Source: Culicoidibacter larvae (lineage in GTDB: Bacteria > Bacillota_I > Bacilli_A > Culicoidibacterales > Culicoidibacteraceae). Taken from it: a stretch of DNA of 37,946 nt. Both the position numbers and the translations under genes were made by a program. Of the stretch, positions 9,978-30,701 are shown in pieces. Numbering within the stretch: the stretch's first letter is position 1; each line of letters starts with the position of its first letter. Below the pieces are notes generated by a model that was not told the origin of the DNA, searched no databases, and saw nothing but the letters and a program-made list of their open reading frames with translations. Location: positions 1-37,946 of the forward strand of contig NZ_VBWP01000014.1 of NCBI RefSeq assembly GCF_005771635.1, in the 5' to 3' direction.

Positions 9978-11216
9978 ATGAAAAATCAAGAACGTATCGA
10001 TAAGTATATCCAGTTGATTGTCCATCGCGGCGTACAAATTACTGTCGGCGATAAGCTGATCATTTTCTCAATGGTTGAGAATCCGGAAATTACCCGGGCA
10101 GTTGTTGCCGAGGCCTATAAAGCCGGTGCCCGTGAAGTAGTGGTGCAATACAAAGATGAACAAATCAGTCGTCTGACCGGTCTATACGCTGCCGACGAAG
10201 TCTTTGATGTCTACCCGAAATGGCAGGCGGAATTGTACACGATGATCTGCGAAGAAAATGTTAAGTTGCTGCATTTGGCTTCAGAAGATCCGGAAGCATT
10301 AAACGGCGTGGAACCAAGCCGCCTCATGCGCTTGCAGAAAGCGGCTCAAGAACCGCTGAAAACATACCGCAGCCAGTTAATGGGTGACTATCTGACATGG
10401 AGCATTGCCGGAGTACCGAACATTGCTTGGGCAAAAAAAGTGTATCCTGAATTAGATGAAGCAGCTGCAGTTGAAAAACTTTGGGATTCGATTCTCTACT
10501 CAGTGCATATTGATGATCAAGATGATCCGCTTGCAGGCTGGGATGCCCATACTGCGCGCTTGCAACATGCATTGGAGCAGATGAATGATTATAACTTCAA
10601 AAGCTTGCACTATACCAACAGTTTAGGCACTGACTTATTTATTGGTCTGCCTGAAGGACATGCTTGGGAAGGCGGTAAGTCAACCAACAAAACAACTAAT
10701 ACTAAATTTAACGCTAATATGCCGACTGAAGAAGTATTCTCACTGGCAGACTGCAATAATGTTGAAGGAGTAGTTTATAGTTCAAAACCATTATCATACA
10801 GTGGTGTGCTGATGGAAAACTTCGGTTTTCGTTTTGAAGCTGGCCGGGTAGTAGAAGTCTTTGCTGAGAATGGTAAAGATATGCTTGAAGAAATGATTGC
10901 CAGTGATGATGGTGCCGGTCGTATTGGTGAAGTGGCATTAGTGCCATACCATTCACCAATTTCACTCATGGACACAATTTTCTATAACACGCTTTATGAT
11001 GAGAATGCGTCATGTCACTTAGCACTAGGTGCTGCTTATCCGACAACTTTGCCGGCAAGTGATGGCAAAACACCGGAAGAATTAAAAGCAATGGGTTTCA
11101 ATGAATCGCTGATTCATGTTGACTTTATGATTGGAACGGCCGACCTAAAAATTATTGGTACAACCCAAGACGGTCAAGAAATTCCAGTATTTATTGATGG
11201 TGATTTTGCCTTCTAA
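9978..11216 (+). CDS. M29-family metallo-aminopeptidase (AmpS/PepS type)
   Basis: 412 residues from the ATG at 9978. The GTG at 9969 overlaps the end of the AAGGAG SD, so it is not the start. M29 enzymes are cytosolic dimers that remove N-terminal residues using two metal ions, often Co or Zn. Candidate ligands follow the family order: Glu251 (NMPTEEVF), Glu318 (GRIGEVAL), His347 (DENASCHLALG), His380 and Asp382 (HVDFMIG). The N-terminal half has the GDKLIIF...AYKAGAREVVVQYKD fold typical of the group. It is complete, single-gene, with its own promoter and a strong terminator. Role: general peptide turnover. Confidence 0.93.
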   Translation: MKNQERIDKYIQLIVHRGVQITVGDKLIIFSMVENPEITRAVVAEAYKAGAREVVVQYKDEQISRLTGLYAADEVFDVYPKWQAELYTMICEENVKLLHLASEDPEALNGVEPSRLMRLQKAAQEPLKTYRSQLMGDYLTWSIAGVPNIAWAKKVYPELDEAAAVEKLWDSILYSVHIDDQDDPLAGWDAHTARLQHALEQMNDYNFKSLHYTNSLGTDLFIGLPEGHAWEGGKSTNKTTNTKFNANMPTEEVFSLADCNNVEGVVYSSKPLSYSGVLMENFGFRFEAGRVVEVFAENGKDMLEEMIASDDGAGRIGEVALVPYHSPISLMDTIFYNTLYDENASCHLALGAAYPTTLPASDGKTPEELKAMGFNESLIHVDFMIGTADLKIIGTTQDGQEIPVFIDGDFAF

Positions 11217-11223
11217 AGAAGAT

Positions 11224-11259
11224 AAAAAAACTGCGGAAGTTTACTTCCGCAGTTTTTTT
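11224..11259. terminator. Bidirectional terminator between convergent genes
   Basis: 17-bp perfect stem from A7-CTGCGGAAGT to ACTTCCGCAG-T7 with a 2-nt TT loop. It overlaps the stop codon of the minus-strand gene at 11258. Confidence 0.93.
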
Positions 11260-11746
11260 ACATTTTAAATGGAGTTACCTCAGCGTTTTTATCAGCAAAG
11301 CGAACAATATACTTGTGCTCGCCGTCAAATAATACCGCACCGGTTAATTGGATTTTCAGTAAACAGGTACCCTCGTCTTTTTCATTAACATGAGCATCGT
11401 AAAACTGAATAAATACTTGCCGCAGTTCATCGCGCAATGCCTTGTTCTGTGGCTCAAGCGGGTGTCCGAGGTTCTCGGCGTCGCCCCAAGCCTGAAACAG
11501 GCTTTCGGCGTCAGTCACCGGCACTTGCTGTTCAACACCGCGGCAAAGTCCGGCACGCGGATTCTTGGCAATTTGCTGCATCTTTATCGAGGCGGTGTGG
11601 CTAGTGATGTAGATAGCACCATCTTTGTAGTAACCATTAATATTGCGGGCAGTAGGGATATCATCAGCACTCGTCGCCAGCGCGAATACCACATTATGTC
11701 CTAATTGCTCAGTTAAGACAGCTTCAGCTTTATCATAATCAGTCAT
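11258..11746 (-). CDS. Pyridoxamine 5'-phosphate oxidase-like, flavin-binding split-barrel protein
   Basis: 162 residues from the ATG at 11746, which follows GGGAGGA; an upstream in-frame start precedes this SD and is rejected. The sequence NVVFALATSADDIPTARNINGYYKDGAIYITSHTASIKMQQIAKNPRAGLC is the standard beginning of the PNPOx-like FMN-binding barrel. The later EGTCLLKIQLTGAVLFDGEHKYIVRFADKNAEVTPF closes it. These small proteins bind FMN or F420 and often act as general-stress flavoproteins or reductases. True pyridoxine biosynthesis enzymes are longer. Substrate unknown. It is monocistronic. Confidence 0.87.
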   Translation of the reverse strand: MTDYDKAEAVLTEQLGHNVVFALATSADDIPTARNINGYYKDGAIYITSHTASIKMQQIAKNPRAGLCRGVEQQVPVTDAESLFQAWGDAENLGHPLEPQNKALRDELRQVFIQFYDAHVNEKDEGTCLLKIQLTGAVLFDGEHKYIVRFADKNAEVTPFKM

Positions 11747-11780
11747 AAAAATTCCTCCCTTAATCATGTTTGATGTTACT

Positions 11781-11789
11781 AGTATAGCA
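11781..11789 (-). promoter_or_regulatory. Extended -10 promoter of the PNPOx-like gene
   Basis: On the minus strand TGC-TATACT (11789-11781), about 35 nt before the start. No clear -35. Confidence 0.6.
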
Positions 11790-11832
11790 CGGAATGAATG
11801 AAGATAAGCGACATTGCGAAAATATCACATTG

Positions 11833-11861
11833 TTGACAGCAGCAAGGGATTTCGGTATAGT
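11833..11861 (+). promoter_or_regulatory. Strong promoter of the ABC-F leader transcript
   Basis: TTGACA (11833-11838), 17 nt, TATAGT (11856-11861). Transcription would start near 11868, giving an untranslated leader of about 278 nt before the ABC-F start codon. Confidence 0.88.
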
Positions 11862-11896
11862 TAATGTAACTAGAAACAAAGTGAGGTGAGAATTTT

Positions 11897-12025
11897 ATGT
11901 TAGCGAATAATGCGCAGTTAAAATTAGTCAGTTATTTATATTTAACTTGTGCGCTTGTAAACAAAGTGCTTTTTACAGGGGAGGAGTCTGCCCAAATGAG
12001 TACAAAATTACATAATTATTCGTAG
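11897..12025 (+). CDS. Leader peptide of the ABC-F gene (42 codons, with a nested 9-codon start)
   Basis: The ATG at 11897 follows GAGGTGAG by 6 nt and opens a 42-residue frame ending in TAG at 12023-12025. Inside it, in the same frame, the ATG at 11996 follows an even stronger SD, GGGGAGGAG (11978-11986), by 9 nt. It would give the 9-residue peptide MSTKLHNYS. Either or both may be translated. The frame ends 36 nt before an intrinsic terminator that itself precedes the ABC-F gene. This is the layout of ribosome-mediated attenuation known for ABC-F and Erm resistance genes, where a drug-stalled ribosome on the leader prevents terminator formation. The peptide sequence is not one I recognise. 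Confidence 0.65.
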   Translation: MLANNAQLKLVSYLYLTCALVNKVLFTGEESAQMSTKLHNYS

Positions 12026-12061
12026 ATAACATGGAATTCTTTTTTGGTTTATAAGAACTTG

Positions 12062-12101
12062 AACAGGAGCAGCCCGTGGGGTCTGTTCCTGTTTTTATTT
12101 T
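12062..12101 (+). terminator. Attenuator terminator upstream of the ABC-F gene
   Basis: Stem AACAGGAGCAG (12062-12072) with CTGTTCCTGTT (12083-12093), one G-T pair, extended by CCC/GGG inside the loop, then TTTTTATTTT. It lies between the leader peptide and the ABC-F start. An alternative CTGTTTTTATTT / AAATAAACAG pairing (about 12089-12112) overlaps its T-run and could compete. Confidence 0.85.
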
Positions 12102-12145
12102 CAAATAAACAGCTATCTGCGAACATATTTAAAGGAGAATAAAAA

Positions 12146-13774
12146 ATGATTGCAGTAGCAGTAAATAAAGTGAAAAAGAGCTATGGCGGGAATGTTGTGT
12201 TGGAAGATATAACATTTTCGATTCAAGAGGGCGAGCGGATTGGTTTTATCGGCCGCAATGGTGAGGGCAAGAGTACAATTTTAAAGATTATTGCCGGTAT
12301 TGAATCGGTTGATGGCGGTGAAGTTTTTCGCAAGAAGCAGATGAGTATTGGGATGCTTGATCAGATTCCGGAAGCAGAGGCGAATGAATCGGTTGAGGAA
12401 TTTTTATTAGCAGCATTTACCGATGTTTTAGCGTTACAGCAGCGTTTGCACGAATTGGAAGCAATGATGGCTAGTGATATGAGTGAGCGGGTGCTTAATC
12501 AATATGGCCGAATACAGAGCGAGTTTATTGAACTTGGTGGCTATCAGATTGAAAGTGAAATTGCACGGATACTCAATGGATTAGGGATTGCTGATTTAGC
12601 GAAGCAGCGGTTTGCTAAGTTGTCTGGTGGCGAGCGCACGAAGGTGGCGCTGGCGCAATTGCTGTTGCAACAGCCGGACTTGCTGTTGCTGGATGAGCCG
12701 ACCAATCATTTAGATTTGGCGGCGGTTTTATGGCTGACTAACTTTGTAAAAAATTATAACGGTACCTGCTTTATGGTTTCGCATGATCGCTACTTTCTTG
12801 ATGATACCGCACAACGTATTTTTGAATTGGATAATAAAACGATGTATGAATATACCGGTAACTATTCAGCGTATTTGGTAGAACGTGAAGCGCGGATATT
12901 ACGCGAGTTTCAGGAGTATAAGGACCAGCAGAAGAAAATTACTAAGATGAAGCAGGCAATAAAACGTCTGCGTGAGTGGGCGATGGCTGCCAATCCGCCA
13001 AATGCCGCGCTGTTTCGCCGGGCTAAAAATATGGAGCGGGCATTGGCAAGAATTGAGTTAGTTAAGAAGCCCAATACGGCTAAGCCGATGAATTTACAGT
13101 TCGAGACTGGTAAGCGCAGTGGTAAGGATGCTTTGATTTTTGAGGCCGTGAGTAAACAATTTGCTGATAAAGTGATAGTATCGGCGGTTGATTTGCAAGT
13201 TCGTTACGGCGAACGAGTTGCTTTGATTGGCGAAAACGGCGCCGGCAAGTCAACGATTCTTCGACTTGCATTAGGGAGTGAAGCGGTTGACAGCGGTAAG
13301 GCAATGTTAGGTTCACAGGTAAAAATTGCCTATTTGTCACAAGATTTTGTTGTTGATTCACCAAAGCAGCGAGTTATTGATTTCTTTCGCGAACGGGTGT
13401 TGGTTGATGAGGGGAAAGCGCGCCATCTGTTGGCTCAGTTTTTATTCTATGGCGATATGGTTTACCGCCGGGTCAGCGATTTAAGCGGTGGCGAACAGAT
13501 GCGTTTGCGCTTTGCAGCATTTGTGAATCAGCCGGTGAATATGCTGGTATTGGATGAACCAACCAATCATTTAGATATTGCCTCACGCGAAGTACTTGAA
13601 GAAGCAATTAAGAACTTTGCGGGAACGGTGATTTGTGTGTCGCATGACCGTTACTTTATTGATCAGCTTTGCGACCGTGTGCTTTGGCTGGAACAAGGCA
13701 TGCTATCTTCGTACCCGGGCAATTATTCATACGCTTTTGAAAAACGATTGGAGCAGGAAAAAGCCGGGCGCTAG
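12146..13774 (+). CDS. ABC-F family ATPase (ribosome-associated, possible antibiotic resistance)
   Basis: 542 residues with two ABC domains and no membrane domain. Domain 1: Walker A GRNGEGKST (36-44), signature LSGGE (159-163), Walker B LLLLDEPTNHLD (179-190). Domain 2: GENGAGKST (362-370), LSGGE (446-450), MLVLDEPTNHLD (466-477). The linker between them (about 240-315, rich in K/R/E with REWAMAANPPNAALFRRAKNMERAL) is the part that reaches the ribosomal P-site tRNA. ABC-F proteins act on the ribosome. Some are housekeeping (Uup, EttA-like) and some displace antibiotics (Vga, Lsa, VmlR). The long leader with attenuator argues for drug-induced expression. I cannot name the drug class. The SD is AAAGGAG. 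Confidence 0.9.
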   Translation: MIAVAVNKVKKSYGGNVVLEDITFSIQEGERIGFIGRNGEGKSTILKIIAGIESVDGGEVFRKKQMSIGMLDQIPEAEANESVEEFLLAAFTDVLALQQRLHELEAMMASDMSERVLNQYGRIQSEFIELGGYQIESEIARILNGLGIADLAKQRFAKLSGGERTKVALAQLLLQQPDLLLLDEPTNHLDLAAVLWLTNFVKNYNGTCFMVSHDRYFLDDTAQRIFELDNKTMYEYTGNYSAYLVEREARILREFQEYKDQQKKITKMKQAIKRLREWAMAANPPNAALFRRAKNMERALARIELVKKPNTAKPMNLQFETGKRSGKDALIFEAVSKQFADKVIVSAVDLQVRYGERVALIGENGAGKSTILRLALGSEAVDSGKAMLGSQVKIAYLSQDFVVDSPKQRVIDFFRERVLVDEGKARHLLAQFLFYGDMVYRRVSDLSGGEQMRLRFAAFVNQPVNMLVLDEPTNHLDIASREVLEEAIKNFAGTVICVSHDRYFIDQLCDRVLWLEQGMLSSYPGNYSYAFEKRLEQEKAGR

Positions 13775-13790
13775 GCGTCCGACTTTTTTT
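13758..13790 (+). terminator. Terminator overlapping the end of the ABC-F gene
   Basis: Stem AAAAG-c-CGG-G-CGC / GCG-T-CCG-a-CTTTT, one mismatch and one G-T pair, then T7. The stop codon lies in the loop. Confidence 0.8.
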
Positions 13791-13811
13791 AACTTTTCCT
13801 AAAAAGAGAGA

Positions 13812-13840
13812 TTGTAAACAATTATATTTTTCGGTACAAT
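13812..13840 (+). promoter_or_regulatory. Promoter of the YdjG-YdjH-like pair
   Basis: TTGTAA (13812-13817), 17 nt, TACAAT (13835-13840); a second TATAAT follows at 13843-13848. Confidence 0.72.
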
Positions 13841-13874
13841 ATATAATAACTATATATGAAAAAAGGGGTAAAAT

Positions 13875-14930
13875 ATGGCAGTTTCTACATACAATTGTCC
13901 GAATTGCGGGGCAGCGGTAGTGTTTAATGCAGAGACACAGCTTTTTGGGTGTGATTATTGCGGTGGTAGCTTTACGGAGCCGGAGATTAAACAACTTACT
14001 GATGCGCTGGCAGGTAAAAATCAAGAACGAGCAAAAGTTGAACAAGAGAGCGAAGCAATTGGTGGACAAATCAATTATCATTGTAGTCAGTGCGGAGCTG
14101 AAATTATTGGTGATGAAAATACGTCGGCAACTTTTTGCTTGTATTGTCAGAGTCCAACAATCATTCCTTCACGACTAACTGATAAATTTGCGCCAAATAT
14201 GCTGATTCCATTTAAAATCAGTAAAGAACAGGCCGTGCAAACTTTTATGAACTGGTCAGCAAGTGCGTGGTTTGTGCCAAATGATTTTCGCTCAAAGTCG
14301 CAGCAGGAAAAGATGTCAGGTCTTTATGTGCCATTCTGGCTTTTTGATTTTAAAGCGGAGTTTGCTTTTAATGGTACTGGGACTAAAGTGAAAACATGGC
14401 GGGCAGGGAATTACCGCTATACACAAACTGATACATATCAGATACAACGTCAAGGAAATATGGGGTTTGCTCATATGCCAGCTGACGGGTCTAAAAAAAT
14501 GAGTAATGAAATAATGGACTTGCTTGAACCATATAATTTTACTGATTTGCAAAAATTTGAGCCAGCTTATTTATCAGGCTTTTTTGCTGAGAAGTATGAT
14601 GAGGATCAAACGGTGGTATTTCCGCGGATTTCTGAGCGTGGTAAGAAATATTGTAATGAGAATGTCAGTCGAACCATTTCCGGGTATACGACGATGGCAA
14701 TTGAGCGCCAAATTAATATTCCTAAGGCAACTCATAACTATGCTTTGTTGCCAGTATGGATTTTAGGCTATAAATACAATGATAGAATTTATTATTTCAC
14801 TATGAATGGACAAACCGGTAAAGTAATTGGCAAATTGCCGGTGAGTCGCGGTAAAGTTGTTCGCTTTGCCATTCTATTGGCAGTTATCAGCTTTATCATT
14901 ATGTTCATCGGGGGGGCGTTGGTATTATGA
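13875..14930 (+). CDS. YdjG-like zinc-ribbon protein with a C-terminal membrane anchor
   Basis: 351 residues. Two zinc ribbons stand at the N-terminus: CPNC..CDYC (residues about 8-29) and CSQC..CLYC (about 61-82). The central region has NMLIPFKISKEQA, GLYVPFWLFDF and LLPVWILGYKY motifs. A single membrane helix (about 326-348) ends the protein, so the bulk faces the cytosol. The closest named relative by domain plan and neighbours is Bacillus subtilis YdjG. There YdjG and YdjH form a membrane complex that works with the SPFH protein YdjI and PspA in membrane-stress response. Here it overlaps the YdjH-like gene by 4 nt (ATGA). SD AAGGGG. Confidence 0.8.
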   Translation: MAVSTYNCPNCGAAVVFNAETQLFGCDYCGGSFTEPEIKQLTDALAGKNQERAKVEQESEAIGGQINYHCSQCGAEIIGDENTSATFCLYCQSPTIIPSRLTDKFAPNMLIPFKISKEQAVQTFMNWSASAWFVPNDFRSKSQQEKMSGLYVPFWLFDFKAEFAFNGTGTKVKTWRAGNYRYTQTDTYQIQRQGNMGFAHMPADGSKKMSNEIMDLLEPYNFTDLQKFEPAYLSGFFAEKYDEDQTVVFPRISERGKKYCNENVSRTISGYTTMAIERQINIPKATHNYALLPVWILGYKYNDRIYYFTMNGQTGKVIGKLPVSRGKVVRFAILLAVISFIIMFIGGALVL

Positions 14931-28405: not shown

Positions 28406-28421
28406 ATAAGGAGTCTTAATG

Positions 28422-30701
28422 ATGGGACATTTATTAAAGTCGGGGATTTTGCTTGATACCTCTCATCCGCGACATTTACAGCAAACTGACATTTTAATTG
28501 AGGATGGGAAGATTAGCCAAGTGGCGGCAAATATTGCTGCGGATGAGCATGAAGTTATTGAATTAAGCGGGAAGTATGTATCGGCGGGCTGGATTGATAT
28601 GCACGCACATACGTTTACCAGTGATGGTCCGCTTAGTACTGATGCTGATCTCCTTGGTGTTGAGCAAGGCGTAAGTATGGTTATCGATGCCGGTACTGCC
28701 GGAAGCGACGACATGCCGGTCTTTTTTGAGCAGATGCAAACAAAGAAGACAAAGATTAAAGCCTTTATAAATGTTTCATCAATGGGAATTGCCAGCCGGT
28801 ATGAGTTGCGGGATTTAAATCAGATTAGATTTGATGATATCCGCAACACATATAAAAACTACCAGGATTTTATTGTTGGTATTAAGGTACGTGAGAGCGG
28901 TAGTGTGGTGGGTGAAAACGGAGTGCAACCGCTTGTCCTCGGACAAACGATTGCAAAAGAACTTGGATTGCCAATCATGGTTCATATCGGCAATACGCCG
29001 CCGGAATTATTGGATATTCTAGCTTTGTTAAAGCGTGGCGATATTGTTACGCACATATATAATGGCAAAGCTAATAATATTTTCCAAGGTGGCGATGTGG
29101 TGCATCCGGATGTTATTGCAGCTCATCAGCGCGGCGTTATTTTTGATATTGGTCATGGTCGAGATAGTTTTAGTTTTGATGTGGCCCGCCGTGCGTTAGC
29201 ACAAGGATTGGTGACTGATACGATTAGTACAGACGGGTATACTGAAAATTTACCGGGACCGGTAAAAAGTTTAGCTAACGTGGTAACTAAGTTTCTGCAC
29301 TTAGGTATGCCGCTTGCCGATTGTATTGATAAGATTACTGCGAAGCCGGCGGCAGTGCTTGGCCTTGAGAACGGCCGTGTGCTGCCCGGACTTCCTGCTG
29401 ATATAACCGTCTTTAGTGTTATTCGTGAGGAAGTTGAATTAGTAGATAGTACTGGTGCGGTTGAGATTGGGCAGCAATTCATCCAGCCGGAGATGGTATT
29501 TATTGATGGTGATAAATTTTTAGTACACCCCAAGAGTACTTGTTCACAAGCGGTTATAGAGCCGCTTGACACAGCGGAGGAGTTAAATAGTATGGAGTTA
29601 GTTGATTTAGGTGTGCGCCGGGTAATTAATGCCTCGGGGCGGATGACCAAGCTTGGGGTTTCAACACCAAGTGCGTCGGTGCTAGCAGCGATGAATCGTG
29701 GTGCCGACAGTTATGTGCTGATGGATGAATTAATTGATGCAGCCGGTCAGTTTATTGCCAGCGAGATTGGTGCGGCTGACGTTTGTGTGACAACAAGTGC
29801 TTCTAGTGGAATTGTTTTGACAATTGCTTCATTGATAGCCAAAAATAATATTGAGTATATTGAGAACCTGACGAAATATAGTTCAAAACTGCCAAATCAA
29901 GTGTTGATGCTTAAGGGACACAATGTGAATTATAATGTGCCAATCGAGACGATGGTGAATCTTGGTGGCGGTGTTATTAAAGAAGTTGGCTCAGCTAACC
30001 AGGCGTCACGTGCGCAGCTGGAAGCGGCGGTCAGCGATGATACGATTGCGCTTTTTTACGTGAAATCGCATCATACGGTGCAGAAGAATATGGTTTCGCT
30101 TGAAGACATGATTGCTGTCGCTAAGGCATATCATTTGCCATTGATTGTAGATGCTGCAGCTGAAGAAGATTTCAGTAAGTATCTGGCAATGGGCGCTGAT
30201 TTGGTCATCTATAGCGGAACTAAAGCTTTATGCGGTCCGACATCGGGATTTGTAGCTGGTAGTGACGCTGAGTTGATTGCTAATATTAAAGCACAATACC
30301 GTGGCATTGGCCGGGCAATGAAGGTCGGCAAGGAAACTATTTACGGATTGGTACAGGCGGTTGCTGAGTTTATGCAGGCACCACCAAAACCAGTGGTAAC
30401 CCAGACTGAACTTGAAGCGTTTATGGGCGCTGTGAATCAGATTGCCGGATTAACTGCTGAATTTGAAGATGATGAGTCCGGGCGGGCAATTGCGCGAGTG
30501 CAGATTCATGTTGATGAACGAACTGATGGTTATGGAAAAAATGCGCTCACCCTGGTCAGCGAGCTGGCCCAAGGTGAGGTAGCGATATTCACCCGTGACT
30601 ACTATGCTAATGTTGGTCACTTCAGCATTGATCCGCGGCCGTTGTTGGCAGGCGACTTAGATATTATTTTAAGCCAATTACAAAATTTGCAAGGAGAATG
30701 A
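28422..30701 (+). CDS. Fusion: amidohydrolase/deacetylase + DgaE-like PLP ammonia-lyase
   Basis: 759 residues, joining two enzymes usually made separately. Residues 1-380 are a COG3964-type metallo-deacetylase (HAH metal motif at His61/His63, VGIKVRES lysine, MVHIGN, VTHIYNG, ISTDGY). Residues 391-759 are a SelA/DgaE-like pyridoxal-phosphate enzyme (VRRVINASGRMTKLG, TTSASSGIVL, SGTKALCGPTSG with Schiff-base Lys601). DgaE turns D-glucosaminate 6-phosphate into 2-keto-3-deoxygluconate 6-phosphate and ammonia. The fused chain could deacetylate an N-acetyl-amino sugar acid and pass it to the lyase. Start at 28422 or 28419; AAGGAG precedes. An internal ribosome site near 29576 may also make the lyase alone. 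Confidence 0.87.
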   Translation: MGHLLKSGILLDTSHPRHLQQTDILIEDGKISQVAANIAADEHEVIELSGKYVSAGWIDMHAHTFTSDGPLSTDADLLGVEQGVSMVIDAGTAGSDDMPVFFEQMQTKKTKIKAFINVSSMGIASRYELRDLNQIRFDDIRNTYKNYQDFIVGIKVRESGSVVGENGVQPLVLGQTIAKELGLPIMVHIGNTPPELLDILALLKRGDIVTHIYNGKANNIFQGGDVVHPDVIAAHQRGVIFDIGHGRDSFSFDVARRALAQGLVTDTISTDGYTENLPGPVKSLANVVTKFLHLGMPLADCIDKITAKPAAVLGLENGRVLPGLPADITVFSVIREEVELVDSTGAVEIGQQFIQPEMVFIDGDKFLVHPKSTCSQAVIEPLDTAEELNSMELVDLGVRRVINASGRMTKLGVSTPSASVLAAMNRGADSYVLMDELIDAAGQFIASEIGAADVCVTTSASSGIVLTIASLIAKNNIEYIENLTKYSSKLPNQVLMLKGHNVNYNVPIETMVNLGGGVIKEVGSANQASRAQLEAAVSDDTIALFYVKSHHTVQKNMVSLEDMIAVAKAYHLPLIVDAAAEEDFSKYLAMGADLVIYSGTKALCGPTSGFVAGSDAELIANIKAQYRGIGRAMKVGKETIYGLVQAVAEFMQAPPKPVVTQTELEAFMGAVNQIAGLTAEFEDDESGRAIARVQIHVDERTDGYGKNALTLVSELAQGEVAIFTRDYYANVGHFSIDPRPLLAGDLDIILSQLQNLQGE
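29576..29594 (+). promoter_or_regulatory. Internal ribosome binding site and start at the fusion junction
   Basis: GGAGGAG (29576-29582), 9 nt, then in-frame ATG (29592). Translation from here gives a 369-residue protein, a normal DgaE length. It decides whether a separate lyase subunit is also made. Confidence 0.65.

Follow-up and report, generated by a model that had tools for sequence, protein, structure and literature searches.

ABC-F genes acting against pleuromutilins, lincosamides and streptogramins A are preceded by uORFs of only three to four codons, namely MIN, MK[L/Q], MR[I/M] and MAGN (PMC10201436). The vmlR leader of Bacillus subtilis comprises a hairpin bearing the uORF, a small second hairpin, a terminator and a closed ribosome-binding site (RBS), and it combines transcription and translation attenuation with RNA polymerase pausing (PMC9226507). 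Its three-codon uORF, Met-Ile-Asn, responds to drugs that stall initiating ribosomes, and VmlR is an ARE2 protein (PMC10201436). The cplR leader of Clostridioides difficile regulates the gene of an ARE1 ABC-F protein through a terminator and Shine-Dalgarno (SD) sequestration (PMC10201436); the uORF is Met-Arg-Ile, and the SD lies inside the terminator stem itself. In ermC-type translation attenuators, arrest on a leader peptide rearranges the RNA and exposes the downstream SD (PMC10219788). The RliI RNA of Listeria was found as a small RNA and reportedly binds the lmo1035-lmo1036 transcript (PMC8079631). It lies upstream of lmo2760, term-seq marked it as a putative conditional terminator of that gene, and the review lists it among the sRNAs whose physiological role is unknown (PMC8079631).

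Here, we describe a leader upstream of an ABC-F gene in the window, a stretch of 37,946 nucleotides from Culicoidibacter larvae. On the combined evidence, the leader is probably a ribosome-mediated attenuator of the ABC-F gene and a distant homologue of the RliI leader of lmo2760. Its layout resembles that of vmlR, including the proposed combination of transcription and translation attenuation, and it shares with cplR a terminator together with an SD predicted to be closed. However, its ORF has 42 codons with conservation deep in the frame, in contrast to the three-codon uORFs of vmlR and cplR. The proposed rearrangement upon peptide arrest is similar to that of ermC, whereas in the window an intrinsic terminator lies between the switch arms, and we judge the peptide sequences to be unrelated.

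Elements of the leader

All elements lie on the forward strand. The sigma-A type promoter TTGACA-N17-TATAGT (11833-11861) agrees with the consensus at 11 of 12 bases, has a 17-nt spacer and ranked top of the six matches returned by the promoter scan within 11000-14500. Transcription would start near 11868, and the match to the RliI model begins at 11871. An SD, GAGGTGA (11883-11889), precedes the 42-codon leader ORF (11897-12025), which encodes MLANNAQLKLVSYLYLTCALVNKVLFTGEESAQMSTKLHNYS. The intrinsic terminator stem-loop (12061-12094), which leads into a U-rich tract ending at about 12102, folds at -22.9 kcal/mol (z -4.3), and none of 200 shuffles was equally stable; a simple scan missed it, probably owing to its bulged stem. 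The entire leader (11868-12145) gave a z of -5.0, and again 0 of 200 shuffles folded equally well. The gene itself, with the SD AAGGAG at 12132-12137, encodes an ABC-F ATPase of 542 aa (12146-13774). The earlier note had named the promoter, the leader ORF and the terminator ahead of the gene start, and all of these were confirmed in place. It had also pointed to a nested 9-codon ORF, MSTKLHNYS (11996-12025), whose ATG at 11996 is indeed present behind GGGGAGGAG.

Two short sequences were recorded in passing. TTCTTT (12037-12042), between the leader ORF and the terminator, fits TTNTTT, the NusG-dependent pause motif described for vmlR (PMC9226507), although it is too short for judgement. A terminator-like hairpin (13765-13781) overlaps the last codons of the ABC-F gene, which makes a monocistronic transcript probable.

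Homology to the Listeria RliI leader

The Rfam scan at the gathering threshold listed nothing for the window leader. In the E-value scan, RF01487 (rliI) matched 11871-12094 over its full length (model 1-239 of 239) with 20.2 bits and an E of 0.0025 or 0.0034 according to the length of sequence scanned, and this was the best RF01487 place in the whole 2.5-Mb genome (E 0.005, next 4.5). Because 20.2 bits falls short of the gathering score of 45 bits, we call the leader a distant homologue backed by position and not a formal member of RF01487. For comparison, the Listeria leader (locus L010) scored 282.6 bits. The rliI scan over the other leaders returned only one weak match, in E. gilvus (17.2 bits, E 4.2). 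As in Listeria, the window leader sits upstream of an apparent lmo2760 ortholog and has an intrinsic terminator at its end. The Listeria gene, which adjoins guaB, was taken as lmo2760 by its position relative to RliI (PMC8079631).

The peptide frames agree as well. Beginning at the start codon, the Listeria leader frame MFLLNARTSIAKFLYIVRAIFSVIAVTLAKSAQKTV and the first 36 codons of the window frame form a gap-free alignment, with nine identities past the start (p 0.0002 by score and 0.0006 by identities). In nucleotides, the two ORFs agree at 57 of 108 positions and share one in-register identical run of 12, each with p 0.0002 against codon shuffles. These comparisons exclude a chance origin of the long peptide frame and support the 42-codon frame as a working peptide homologous in register to the one encoded by RliI. 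The peptide therefore has a precedent (p about 0.0002), contrary to what had been noted before. A staphylococcal leader, MFLIAYCCRYLQIIRNKFSILIPKLVKSV..., matched the Listeria leader at a 3-residue offset (p 0.0004); between plasmids its frame shifts and its sequence changes after KSV, while the RNA arms stay.

The two leaders share a hairpin motif ending in GCCCAAA. They differ in their arm, terminator and post-terminator sequences, and the Listeria ORF has 36 codons and no nested start, whereas the window ORF has 42 codons and carries one.

The ABC-F protein and its relatives

The window ABC-F scored 476 bits with the NCBIfam model of ribosomal protection-like ABC-F proteins, whose cut-off is 380 bits. 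Among annotated records, the closest named protein was Lmo2760 of Listeria monocytogenes (57%), followed by staphylococcal plasmid proteins (about 46%). Maximum-likelihood trees placed the window protein and Lmo2760 in one clade (support 100/97 and 99/98) and joined both with the staphylococcal proteins in a larger clade, here clade A (100/100 and 100/99). Clade A fell outside Vga/Msr, Lsa, OptrA with the YdiF-like proteins, and PoxtA; VmlR, Sal and LmrC were not sampled. Hence, unlike VmlR, the window ABC-F belongs to none of the characterised ARE clades sampled (Vga/Msr, Lsa, OptrA and PoxtA).

The inter-domain stretch measures 94 aa in the window protein and 94-95 aa throughout clade A, compared with 116-120 aa in Vga, Msr and Lsa, 92 in PoxtA, 88 in OptrA and 84 in EttA. 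The window protein thus has no long antibiotic-resistance-domain linker of the kind typical of PLSA or macrolide factors. Short linkers are found in phenicol/oxazolidinone factors and also in housekeeping ABC-Fs.

Genome searches of the genus, order, phylum and class returned no second clade A member, the ABC-F scan of the genome contigs returned only an unrelated ABC ATPase, and the search of viral contigs gave no match. Clade A ABC-F genes with a leader occur on several staphylococcal plasmids (L011-L013, L058 and L059), near recombinase or Fst toxin genes. A GenBank record labelled as a Listeria phage (OR846961.1) contains the Listeria RliI leader frame and lmo2760; it most likely represents bacterial chromosome within a phage assembly. 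Across the loci compared, leader and ABC-F gene remain linked and the remaining neighbours vary.

Class- and order-wide searches with Lmo2760 retrieved ABC-Fs at 37-44%. A second clade among them (clade B, support 100/99) has leader ORFs of 38-45 codons led by an SD and followed by terminators. Seven of the nine clade B leaders contain [AV]FCRTI-x-FT and the remaining two [AS]F[SC]HAI-x-F. The residues [RHC]-[AT]-[IL] are common to the related leaders. An SD-led uORF is thus conserved among relatives, with a premature intrinsic terminator between uORF and gene, two traits of the ribosome-mediated ABC-F attenuators of the vmlR, vgaL/Rli53 and cplR type. No convincing conserved leader was seen in most other relatives of the Lmo2760-search group. 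Two members from two genera (L060 and L061) have in common another short leader frame, CRR...GT.LRTESV, about 190 nt upstream of the ABC-F gene, which suggests that this ABC-F group includes a third leader family.

A hairpin kept as RNA and the nested frame

The last third of the leader frame contains a GG...RAGUNYGYYCAAA stretch in the window, in Listeria and in clade B. It is degenerate in the staphylococcal leaders and in L073, L076 and L077. In the window it reads GGGGAGGAGUCUGCCCAAA (11978-11996), with RAGUNYGYYCAAA at 11984-11996; in most folds, as in the Rfam consensus, the leader stem is capped by a small hairpin made from this stretch. A single match to the hairpin pattern, whose derivation does not require the window sequence, lies in the window, where 0.09 would be expected by chance. 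The motif pattern RAGTNYGYYCAAA alone is unspecific genome-wide (9 matches versus 5 in a reversed control).

The AGU triplet of the motif occupies a different frame (0, 1 or 2) in different leaders, and we therefore regard the stretch as kept for its RNA. For the same reason, the shared SAQ residues were rejected as a peptide arrest motif in the main reading, although they may still be relevant within clade A. The SD-like sequence of the nested frame, GGGGAGGAG, is the 5' half of this hairpin motif, and Listeria has no AUG there. On both grounds, the nested 9-codon frame is likely a by-product.

Predicted switch helices in the readthrough RNA

In all 11 terminator-bearing leaders, the segment between hairpin and terminator has a complement between the terminator and the gene start. 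The paired arms vary by lineage: UUCGUAGAUA/UAUCUGCGAA in the window, around GAAGCAUGG/CCAUGCUUC in Listeria, GCGGGAAAA/UUUUUCCCGC in L066 and GGAGGAAUUGUA/UGCAAUUCCUC in L069. Of 300 shuffles per leader, 1-9 paired equally well for five leaders, 17-19 for three, 43 and 52 for two and 174 for one (L077); the 11 include related leaders and are not independent. The window duplex is only moderately better than its shuffles (18 of 300). The scan found no terminator in the staphylococcal leaders, in which visual inspection showed an 11-bp complement, UCUAUAAGGAA/UUCCUUAUAGA.

In the window, arm 2 (UUCGUAGAUA, 12019-12028) overlaps the leader stop codon; a terminating ribosome would therefore cover it. 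Its predicted partner is the 5' end of the leader ORF in the off state and arm 3 (UAUCUGCGAA, 12114-12123) in the on state. In readthrough RNA, the terminator U tract (12092-12102) is predicted to form an off helix of 11 bp with the ABC-F RBS inside 12134-12145. Three states were compared for RNA ending at 12148: ribosome-free, ribosome at codon 20 and ribosome at the stop codon. In these states, the arm 2:arm 3 duplex had predicted probabilities of 0.00, 0.94 and 0.00, and the U tract:RBS helix 0.73, 0.00 and 0.58. In RNA extending to 12160 or beyond, arm 3 is predicted to pair with ABC-F codons 2-5, and the on state drops to 0.00-0.21. According to this modelling, a translation switch can exist besides the terminator, with the end of the leader ORF pairing with post-terminator RNA of the nascent transcript.

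In the predictions, the terminator itself did not respond. With ribosomes masked at codons 1-42, equilibrium folding gave no antiterminator and a terminator probability of 0.96-0.98 at every position. Termination could then be relieved only through kinetics or factors beyond this modelling.

Proposed mechanism and alternative explanations

In the absence of drug, either the 42-codon leader would be translated in full or its RNA would fold back on itself, with arm 2 occupied either way. Most transcripts would stop at the terminator, and in those that read through, the U tract:RBS helix would shut the ABC-F ribosome-binding site. A translation inhibitor would arrest the ribosome within the leader, most likely at about codons 19-20. 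This would free arm 2 to pair with arm 3 and open the ABC-F start, and arrest presumably also lowers termination. The ABC-F protein, for which a resistance function is assumed, would then relieve the inhibition of the ribosome.

The general idea of ribosome-mediated attenuation, already put forward in the earlier note, is strengthened by the conserved leader ORF, the terminator and the predicted mutually exclusive helices of the relatives; the part of it that assigned the sensor role to the nested 9-codon ORF fared worse. Under that reading, drug-stalled ribosomes starting at 11996 would hold the leader hairpin open, and the good SD-like sequence with an AUG 9 nt downstream speaks for it. However, Listeria offers no counterpart to this ORF, the relatives carry no similar nested peptide, and the SD-like run belongs to a hairpin motif conserved for RNA reasons; we consider such a sensor unlikely. 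Slightly less likely again is a leader that acts mainly in trans as a small RNA, with the ABC-F gene expressed by accidental readthrough. The history of RliI, found as an sRNA with a reported mRNA partner (PMC8079631), fits this explanation, whereas the in-register conservation of the peptide frame and the lasting linkage of leader and ABC-F gene do not, and a trans role would do without the recurring complementarity to the sequence behind the terminator.

If the leader ORF encoded a small hydrophobic peptide that acts independently, perhaps at the membrane, this would account for the hydrophobic stretch in the clade A peptides. Nevertheless, the clade B peptides are less hydrophobic and the staphylococcal copies alter frame and sequence past KSV with the RNA arms kept, which makes this the least probable of the three and a very improbable one. 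Attenuation by ribosomes on the long frame thus stays our preferred reading, and the comparison suggests concretely what RliI would do, namely attenuate an ABC-F gene through a leader peptide.

Candidate inducers

The candidate arrest site, codons 19-20 (Ala-Leu, 11951-11956), aligns with Ala-Ile in Listeria and [AT]-Ile in clade B. Conservation near codon 20 suggests an elongation inhibitor that acts context-specifically. Under chloramphenicol or linezolid, ribosomes arrest when the penultimate residue is Ala and, to a lesser extent, Ser or Thr (PMC8987054). The shared [RHC]-[AT]-[IL] places Ala or Thr at -1 and fits this rule, as the short linker does; the staphylococcal leader has Asn at this position and fits the rule at KSV only. 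From the shared residues and the 94-aa linker, phenicols or oxazolidinones are possible inducers, a suggestion that we keep well short of an expectation because Ala, Ser and Thr are frequent residues and a short linker is also found among housekeeping ABC-Fs.

More tentatively still, RliI and the window leader may represent an unrecognised class of long-ORF dual attenuators spanning at least two ABC-F clades. Such leaders would combine an in-frame arrest peptide, [AT]-[IL] at the arrest point and an RNA hairpin tolerated in any frame, would respond to inhibitors with context specificity, phenicols or oxazolidinones for instance, and would control a new subfamily of ribosome-protection ABC-Fs with copies on staphylococcal plasmids. 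The clade is uncharacterised and partly plasmid-borne in staphylococci; its inducing drug would hint at its protection target.

Other loci

The same genome encodes a second ABC-F on the Vga branch (contig G000:C11, about 45.7-47.5 kb), which has a leader of its own. This leader comprises a TTGACA/TATGCT-like promoter, a 3-codon frame, Met-Lys-Leu (MKL), and, immediately before the gene, a hairpin, GAGCTCGTGG...CCACGAGC, with T-rich sequence behind it. Elsewhere in the window, a 760-aa ORF (28419-30701) appeared, by eye from its translation, to combine an amidohydrolase with a PLP-dependent SelA/DgaE-like domain, and its surroundings, which include PTS genes, look like a sugar-acid or amino-sugar cluster.
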